This document shows, in pieces, positions 1 to 2,010 of a DNA stretch of 49,890 nucleotides (positions are counted from its first letter, which is position 1; each line of letters starts with the position of its first letter). This stretch comes from Gemmatimonadota bacterium (GTDB taxonomy: Bacteria; Gemmatimonadota; Gemmatimonadetes; Longimicrobiales; Gaopeijiaceae), in assembly GCA_022561145.1 (NCBI GenBank), contig JADFRS010000008.1:1-49890 (forward strand), written 5' to 3'. Both the position numbers and the translations under genes were made by a program. The notes beneath the pieces are model-generated. The model saw only the letters and a program-made list of their open reading frames with translations, was not told the DNA's origin and ran no database searches.

Positions 1-870
1 CCTTCCTGAAAGAGGGTCCAGGACCCCGCGCCAGGCGGCGTCCTGCGGAGCTCAAACCAGCGAATTCCCGCCTGGTCCGTCCCGGTCACATCGACCGTGA
101 AATTCCCCACCAGCGTCTCGTGGGTGCCGAAGTTTCGGTACTGGAGCCGGTGCATCACCGGCTCCCTCAGGGTATCGAGCAATACACCGGGGGCCGGTTG
201 TGGCACACAGCCAGCGCCTCCACACAAGGTGGAGTCGAATTCCGCTACCAGAACAAGGGACTCTGTGACGGCGAATGCCGGAACACCAAAACCCGTCACG
301 ACCTCAAAGATGTCCAGAAAATCCATAGTCGCATCGACCCCTCCGGTTAACGGGTGCATGCCGTGCACCTCGTCGTCCCAATGGCGCACAAAATGGCCTG
401 GCGCGTCCACGACCGGTGGCGTCAACCCGTCGAGATCGGCCGGAGCAAGCCCCCCCTGGAAGCCGAAGCCCAGATGTGGCGATGGAAACCCCCCGGTGAT
501 TACGAAACCGCTAAAAGTGCCCCCAAGCGCTAAGACCCGATCAATGAAAAAGATGACGTGGGATCCGAACCCGGACGGGTCGTTAACTGTCAGAAAGTAG
601 GCGTCCGGCCAGATGCCCCATTTGGGGTAGTCATGATCCACCACACCGCTAAAAAAGAAGTCGTAGACAAACCAACCGCCCGTCGGATCGGGGGTCGTGG
701 AGATGTAAAAGCAGACACCAGCCCCGTACCCAAATGGGCCTCCATCCACAATGGCACCGCCTGCGCCGTCCAGTTGGATTCCCTCCTGCTCTGAACCTAG
801 GCGTCCCAGCAGGGGGTTGACCTCGCGAACCGGGTCGCCCGGCTTCCAGCGCTTCGCCTTTGGCAGGTCG
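1..870 (-). pseudogene. Partial exported protein of unknown function, open at the window edge and fused to a hutH remnant
   Basis: The minus strand is open from about 870 down to base 1 in one frame with no stop, and the C-terminus lies outside the window. The translation contains the segments 'STTPDPTGGWFVYDF' and 'DYPKWGIWPDAYFLTVND', a pattern I associate with large secreted bacterial proteins of unknown function that carry 'TTxDPTGxW...DYPKxGxWPDxY'. No credible start or signal peptide exists: upstream the frame runs straight into the histidine ammonia-lyase fragment in a different reading frame. It is therefore either the 3' part of a gene whose 5' end was lost by rearrangement, or an assembly join. 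The length seen is about 290 codons. Function cannot be assigned. Confidence 0.55.
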
Positions 871-1393
871 CCAACGCGTCCGCGGAAGGCACCGGCGCAC
901 CGTCGCCCAGAACGAAGCCCTCCCCCAGAATCGTCAGGGCGATGTGTGCGAGTGGCGCAAGATCTCCCGAGGCGCCCACCGATCCCATCTCGGGGACGAC
1001 CGGATGGATGCCGTGGTTCAACATTTGCACCAGCAGCTCGACGAGCTCCAGCCGGCATCCCGAGTGTCCACGACATAGCGCGTTCGCGCGCAATAACAGG
1101 ATGGCTCGCACCTCGATCTGGGAAAGGGCGGCTCCAACTCCCGCCGAATGACTTCGGACCAGGTTGCGCTGCAGCTCCACCTGTTGCTCCGGAGCAATCA
1201 CGACATCGGCGAGGCGACCGAAACCCGTGGTGACGCCGTAGATCCTCTCACCGCTCTCGAGCATTCGCTCGACAAACGCACGTGATTCGGTGACGGCGAC
1301 CCGAGCTGGCTGGCCCAGGGACACTTCGACTCCATCCCGCGCGACCGACTCTACCGCCTCTAGCGTCAACGAATGGCCAGTGAGTTCGATCAT
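797..1393 (-). pseudogene. hutH: Histidine ammonia-lyase, N-terminal fragment (truncated)
   Basis: Histidine ammonia-lyase removes ammonia from L-histidine to give urocanate. The first ~175 residues match the family well: 'YGVTTGFGRLADV' near residue 55, 'LVRSHSAGVG' near 80 and 'GSVGASGDLAPLAH' near 140, whose Ala-Ser-Gly forms the MIO prosthetic group. Family members are about 500 residues, but here homology stops after 'PSADALA' (about position 868), followed by some 23 unrelated residues and a stop at 797-799. The rest of the enzyme is missing and the DNA continues into an unrelated secreted protein in another frame. The ATG overlaps the stop of the upstream AhpD-like gene (ATGA), so the two were probably one operon. 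Without its C-terminal helical domain it is unlikely to be active. Confidence 0.8.
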
Positions 1394-2010
1394 TCGACCT
1401 CGCCCGATCCCTCGCAGCTCCGCTCACGGCGCGCTCCGAACTCTTTGTGCGTGATCGTCATCGCGTCATCCGTCCATTTGGACTCGAGTTCAACGCCAAG
1501 GCCATCCGCGAGACGGTTCACATAGTTGTAATAGGCGCTGACCTGACAGATATCCAAGATGCCGGTGTCGTCGAAGCCGGCCTTCTTCAGGGCGGCGACA
1601 TCAGCCTGTCTCATCCCGCCCGGGTCCCGGGTCAAGCGCACCGCATAGTCCAACATGGCCCGATCCTGTCCGGAAATCTCAGCGAGCCGGTAGTCCCGAG
1701 CCAGCGCGCGTGGAACCTCGGCGTTTCCCAACAGCCGACGGAGACCCGCTCCGTGATGGTTGATTCAATAGAAGCAGTCGTTCGCGGCGGACACCGTCAC
1801 GGCGATCATCTCTCGCCGCACTCGGCTGAGGGGGGACCGGCCGCGCATCAGATGGGCGTAGAGCTGCAGATGGTGCTGCATCGACGGGGGATTCAACGAA
1901 TGGATGCGGACGATGTTGTCCAACTGACCGTCCGTCGCGGCGTAGCGAGCATAGAGCTCTTCCAGAAGGCCATCGGCTTCTTCTTGGGGTACGTAGGGAA
2001 TGTGGGCCAT
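1390..2010 (-). CDS. AhpD-like peroxidase-related selenoprotein (CxxU), read through in-frame TGA
   Basis: A carboxymuconolactone decarboxylase/AhpD-fold protein of 206 residues if the TGA at 1765-1767 is read as selenocysteine. The start 'MAHIPYVPQEEA' is typical of the peroxidase-related enzyme family; a longer in-frame start at 2043 is less likely. The redox site reads 'SAANDCFY-U-INHHGAG': AhpD relatives have CxxC followed by His about four residues later, so the TGA falls exactly on the second, peroxidatic Cys. The two halves (1765-2010 and 1390-1764) are in the same frame and both look conserved, ending 'VSAYYNYVNRLADGLGVELE'. A perfect 6-bp hairpin follows the TGA at the distance expected for a bacterial SECIS. 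The alternative is a nonsense-mutated gene. The end overlaps hutH by 4 bases. It likely reduces organic peroxides or thiols (family inference). Confidence 0.8.
1738..1754 (-). promoter_or_regulatory. Putative bacterial SECIS hairpin
   Basis: On the minus strand, 10 nt after the TGA, ACGGAG pairs perfectly with CTCCGT around the five-base loop CGGGT. The apical loop starts 16 nt after the UGA, within the known 16-37 nt range for SelB-dependent bacterial SECIS elements. It has a G in its first two bases, and the GGGUCU run resembles the GGUCU of the E. coli fdhF element. These sequence observations support Sec insertion; binding by SelB is inferred. Confidence 0.7.

Follow-up and report, generated by a model that had tools for sequence, protein, structure and literature searches.

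An AhpD-like CxxU selenoprotein gene in Gemmatimonadota that apparently heads a histidine-degradation operon

A gene near one end of a contig from an uncultured Gemmatimonadota bacterium (GenBank assembly GCA_022561145.1, contig JADFRS010000008.1; the whole 49,890-nucleotide stretch analyzed is called the window below) very probably encodes an AhpD-like selenoprotein of the TIGR01926 type with selenocysteine (Sec) at codon 82, as judged from sequence comparisons. To go by its gene order, it is apparently the first gene of a histidine-degradation (hut) operon. AhpD-like selenoproteins with a CxxU motif are already on record: two early reports describe them from the data sets of the Sargasso Sea and of Global Ocean Sampling (PMC1088965, PMC2398784), and they also appear in a 2026 review as "AhpD-like protein, TIGR01926, CxxU" (PMC13188914). 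The family is thus already known as selenoproteins, and the protein is counted as an additional member. The hut context of an AhpD-like selenoprotein appears to be unreported; a search for hut-linked selenoproteins or AhpD returned nothing relevant, which describes the library searched and is no proof of novelty.

The reading frame starts with an ATG at position 2010 and ends with a TGA stop codon at 1390–1392 (Table 1). A sequence-only reading of this DNA had given the correct limits of the gene but was silent on the strand, which is the minus strand. It had also proposed that the two halves separated by an in-frame TGA form a single protein, with the TGA in the place of the second Cys of a CxxC motif (CFYU). 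Both points held: the halves share one frame, the sequence around codon 82 is ...SAANDCFY-U-INHHGAGL..., and the read-through product matches TIGR01926 and homologues of solved structure. The TIGR01926 profile gives it 144 bits, above the cut-off of 81.8; the Pfam CMD match is 6.7e-12, and residues 20–172 match the sequence of Protein Data Bank (PDB) entry 3c1l at 6e-33. The cut-off for AhpD sensu stricto (TIGR00777) was not reached (15.2 versus 191.95 bits). Membership in NF041238 (AhpD_rel_CFYUT) was considered and rejected; the CFYU motif and a related fold are alike, but that model spans 357 residues and the score of 57.9 bits is far under its cut-off of 175. With the published AhpD-like TIGR01926/COG2128 family (AhpD-like 1; PMC1088965, PMC2398784, PMC9312934, PMC13188914), the protein shares the hidden Markov model and the position of CxxU, and that family likewise has Sec/Cys pairs among its homologues and a bacterial Sec insertion sequence (SECIS).

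Table 1. Features of the selenoprotein locus in window coordinates
Feature	Position	Strand	Basis
AhpD-like (TIGR01926, COG2128-type) selenoprotein gene	1390..2010	-	206 residues, TIGR01926 match; homologues have similar starts
Glu67, counterpart of PA0269 Glu36 and M. tuberculosis AhpD Glu118	1810..1812	-	invariant column
Cys79, first (resolving-type) Cys of CFYU	1774..1776	-	column nearly invariant
In-frame TGA, Sec82, second position of the CxxC/CxxU redox motif	1765..1767	-	TGA/TGC-only column
His86, counterpart of PA0269 His55 and M. tuberculosis AhpD His137	1753..1755	-	invariant column
Bacterial SECIS hairpin	1738..1754	-	stem 1749-1754 with 1738-1743; loop 1744-1748 (CGGGT)
ATGA, 4-nt overlap of selenoprotein stop with hutH start	1390..1393	-	sequence
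5' part of hutH (histidine ammonia-lyase, ~codons 1-175)	869..1393	-	96% identical to sister L052

A search of 146 genomes (the window's own and relatives) gave 79 with a homologue. The codon 82 column was read in ~110 loci, among them homologues from Acidobacteriota, Chloroflexota, and Planctomycetota besides those from Gemmatimonadota, and is exclusively TGA (Sec) or TGC (Cys), which answers the question of what relatives carry at this site. The Cys forms make up a single clade (support 91/89) within a tree of otherwise Sec forms; the tree is midpoint-rooted, and no direction of change is claimed. The Sec system that had been predicted to lie elsewhere in the genome was found in the same assembly, with selA (546 bits), selB (323 bits), and selD (375 bits) all above their cut-offs and a tRNA-Sec that has the TCA anticodon (68 bits); an absence of sel genes, which would have spoken against Sec, was not observed. 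The selD gene (L112, G000:C228:41365-42285) itself contains a single in-frame TGA, a feature shared with known SelD forms that contain Sec. Among the relatives, selA is present in 62/63 genomes with TGA versus 2/14 with TGC only (Fisher p = 3e-11, uncorrected for kinship). The sole TGA carrier lacking a selA match (G003) is an assembly of 830 contigs and 88% completeness, and its selA is possibly missing because the assembly is incomplete. Two further loci stand apart in the family. A second Sec-containing AhpD-like paralogue with 39% identity is encoded in the same genome (L111, G000:C215:19739-20332), and a distant homologue on a very long branch (L129, G098:C209) has GAAU in place of CxxU, retaining the Sec codon while the first Cys is gone. 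Homologues in plasmid records all have <60% identity, and the annotated ones are named "peroxidase-related enzyme"; the viral contigs searched contained no relatives.

A hairpin beginning 10 nt past the TGA, with a perfect 6-bp stem (ACGGAG/CTCCGT) and its loop 16 nt from the TGA, had been noticed in the sequence-only reading and is present as described. The published limits for bacterial SECIS elements are a loop of 3–9 nt, a stem of 4–16 bp, a G in the first two loop positions, a spacing of 16–37 nt, and a minimum free energy of −7.5 kcal/mol or lower (PMC13188914). The window hairpin has a loop of 5 nt, a stem of 6 bp, and a G at loop position 2, and its spacing of 16 nt sits at the lower bound. 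The energy threshold is reached over 37 nt (−11.3 kcal/mol) but is missed by the bare 17-nt hairpin (−6.7 kcal/mol), and a 60-nt fold favors a different structure. Taken alone, the window hairpin is within chance when compared with synonymous-codon shuffles (p = 0.17). Across 87 Sec sequences, the hairpin score is 16.2 as observed versus 8.4 after shuffling, and the 14 Cys homologues have no hairpin excess (7.4 versus 7.2). The six stem pairs hold in 98.8% of cells in an alignment of 68 sequences, and in 16 of these both sides of the stem have changed by a compensatory G-C to C-G swap. Covariation of the stem is 0.212 versus ≤0.066 with the partner slid, and sliding destroys the pairing. RNAalifold recovered the inner five pairs unaided as a 5-bp consensus stem. 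The hairpin is within the published bacterial limits and conserved with compensatory change. The paralogue group, including L111, has a separate hairpin of its own at 24 nt from the UGA, which is likewise conserved and includes a compensatory change. Searching Rfam at gathering scores gave no match in the window.

The TGA could in principle be a plain stop codon left by a recent nonsense mutation or marking a decaying pseudogene. A mechanical list of open reading frames does give two frames here, as a standard gene caller would, but 63 genomes from several families and classes carry this TGA, it occurs in other phyla as well, and the sel genes are in the genome. Relative to the sister genome, dN/dS is 0.13 downstream of the TGA and 0.30 upstream of it, where only six changes were counted; relative to more distant relatives it is 0.10–0.23 before (where computable) and 0.12–0.20 after. 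The decay of downstream codons that would accompany a recent mutation, named beforehand as contrary evidence, was not seen, and the codons past the TGA are under purifying selection by this comparative measure, with selection acting on both halves of the gene. The conserved TGA and the conserved codons after it have already refuted the plain-stop explanation, to which we assign a negligible probability.

An equally negligible probability attaches to a sequencing or assembly error, or to a genetic code in which TGA encodes Trp. What lends it some color is the state of the source assembly, which is fragmented into 252 contigs (4.1 Mb, 89% completeness) and has an apparently chimeric contig end at 1–868; against it, the identical TGA is found in independent assemblies, homologues have Cys and never Trp at this column, and TGA ends this same gene as an ordinary stop. 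Of nine TGA codons in the whole window with coding-like in-frame flanks, the one in the selenoprotein gene is alone in having a recognized homologous continuation. Of the eight other candidates, the five examined were shadows of longer open reading frames on the opposite strand and were discarded. As stated, the error or recoding explanation is already refuted. From position 869 onward, the window matches the contig of the sister genome (L052) at 94–96%, whereas 1–868 does not match it. The hutH gene is cut near this contig end, and its remainder (from codon 182) closes a second contig of the genome (C187, 18446–19402; length 19402). Because the sister match starts at 869 and hutH continues at the end of C187, the first 868 nucleotides are probably a chimeric contig end, which leaves the selenoprotein gene unaffected. 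On the other side of the gene, ~676 bp of a potassium-channel/TrkA-like gene in the sister (L052, 2018–2694) are missing from the window, where a short fused open reading frame (2239–2652) has its junction near 2310–2315; this gap is either a real deletion or an assembly artefact.

An AlphaFold2 model, built from the window protein and 17 relatives, is all-helical with a mean pLDDT of 80. The top Foldseek matches of the model are 3c1l (best, 1e-9), 2pfx, 6k40, and 2prr. Peroxidase-related proteins of solved structure, namely 3c1l (Mesorhizobium mlr4105), 2pfx, 2oyo, 2prr, and Deinococcus AhpD (6k40), match in sequence at 6e-33 to 1e-19 and in fold at 1e-9 to 8e-8. The three aligned PDB chains (3c1l, 2pfx, and 6k40) have Cys at the Sec position of the window protein. 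Glu67, Cys/Sec82, His86, Arg166, and Gly172 are invariant across 61 sequences. The full AhpD-type Glu-Cys-(His/Tyr)-Cys-His proton relay is present, and its spacing (E67-C79-Y81-U82-H86) is identical, at an offset of 31, to E36-C48-Y50-C51-H55 in PA0269 (2ijc/2o4d), an AhpD-like protein with weak thiol-dependent H2O2 reduction (PMC3141380). PA0269 differs in being shorter (~145 residues), in having Cys instead of Sec, and in sharing only ~24% identity in the fold alignment. Because the relay, the fold, and the PA0269 spacing all match, a selenol peroxidase or a selenol/thiol oxidoreductase is the best-supported chemistry; peroxidase or oxidoreductase activity on peroxides or disulfides is accordingly suggested with moderate confidence from homology. 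The hut-linked clade also conserves a third Cys (Cys155, window 1546–1548) and a C-terminal tail (W179 and E190-F191).

In the Gemmatimonadota clade of 36 genomes that holds this gene (support 100/97), hutH is directly downstream on the same strand in 32. Wherever the contig reaches far enough in the loci examined for gene neighborhood, hutU follows hutH. Of the 32 hut-linked genomes, 23 allow the 4-nt stop/start overlap, and the remaining nine have start codons within ~1–23 nt of the stop. The four unlinked genomes fall into two pairs that sit inside the clade and have retained the gene; hutH was not found in one pair (G071 and G039) and is located elsewhere in the other (G059 and G084). We assign the gene to a hut operon by its conserved position next to hutH and hutU, with all three read in the same direction. 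The order resembles that of the classical hut genes (hutH, hutU, hutI, and hutF) in having hutH-hutU downstream, and differs by the extra selenoprotein gene at the head. The early reports on the CxxU family, in the parts consulted, concern marine metagenomes and name no hut linkage, whereas the window member falls in a hutHU-associated clade of Gemmatimonadota.

Linkage to hut genes was absent in all Cys, Acidobacteriota, Chloroflexota, Planctomycetota, order-level, and class-level homologues examined. Searching by BLAST, no Cys version was found upstream of hutH in one example without Sec (L176), nor in five selA-bearing loci (L174, L175, and L177-L179). In the sister genome, the hut pathway is complete (hutH, hutU, hutF, and hutI), with hutF and hutI beside hutHU, and the idea that the selenoprotein stands in for a missing hut enzyme was rejected on this ground. 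Many relatives also have hutH without this selenoprotein gene. Considering the full pathway beside the gene in the sister and the many relatives whose hutH lacks such a neighbor, any role in the hut pathway would be accessory at most.

Here, we propose a catalytic mechanism for the protein by analogy with AhpD. SelB and Sec-tRNA would decode UGA82 with SelB bound to the hairpin; in their absence, translation would stop at residue 81, ahead of the catalytic residue. The Sec82 selenol, activated by the Glu67/His86 relay, may reduce a peroxide or another oxidized substrate, with protons passed on by Glu67 and His86 in the way described for AhpD. Cys79 would then resolve the selenenic or selenenylsulfide intermediate and regenerate Sec82, and a cellular thiol donor would reduce the protein. 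With less certainty, the enzyme might serve the hut pathway by keeping HutH/HutU reduced or by clearing peroxides from imidazole intermediates. This service is proposed because of gene order alone, and a literature search on peroxides of imidazolone propionate yielded nothing usable in its favor, so that the substrate is our conjecture. We place a dedicated role in histidine degradation just short of an even chance.

The selenoprotein may instead act in general defense against peroxide or disulfide stress, its place before hutH reflecting shared regulation or inherited gene order, and we hold this tentatively as a substantial possibility, distinctly below an even chance. It would account for the lack of hut linkage at every locus examined outside the clade and for the two pairs within the clade that keep the gene unlinked, and the fold and relay fit thiol peroxidases; the 32/36 linkage across many genera and the tight stop/start coupling, however, exceed what is expected of an unrelated neighbor. 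A selenol-based reductive enzyme acting on a small molecule, such as an imidazole derivative, rather than a peroxidase is unlikely. The fold matches do include the AhpD-fold debrominase Bmp8 (6ohi; C82A mutant 6ohj), and the extra conserved residues of the clade (Cys155, W179, and E190-F191) could suit such a function, but the peroxidase-related 3c1l, 2pfx, and 6k40 are far better matches in both sequence and fold, and the peroxidase relay is intact. Returning to a role dedicated to hut, the gene leads the operon and overlaps the hutH start with its stop codon, and for this reason the UGA-Sec codon might also be read as a selenium gate: a shortage of selenium, SelB, or tRNA-Sec would stop ribosomes at codon 82 and lower the coupled translation of hutH. 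We regard such a gate as very improbable. If it were true, Sec would serve as the catalytic residue of a redox enzyme dedicated to hut and, at the same time, as a switch that responds to nutrient supply.

The analysis supports a selenoprotein reading for a gene that annotation pipelines would split or drop. The Sec trait is common in Gemmatimonadota, with selA over the cut-off in 98 of the 146 genomes of the set, and there is little on this phylum in the selenoprotein literature searched. The physiological role of the AhpD-like CxxU family is stated nowhere in the literature found, and the hut link offers a directly testable connection to a pathway.
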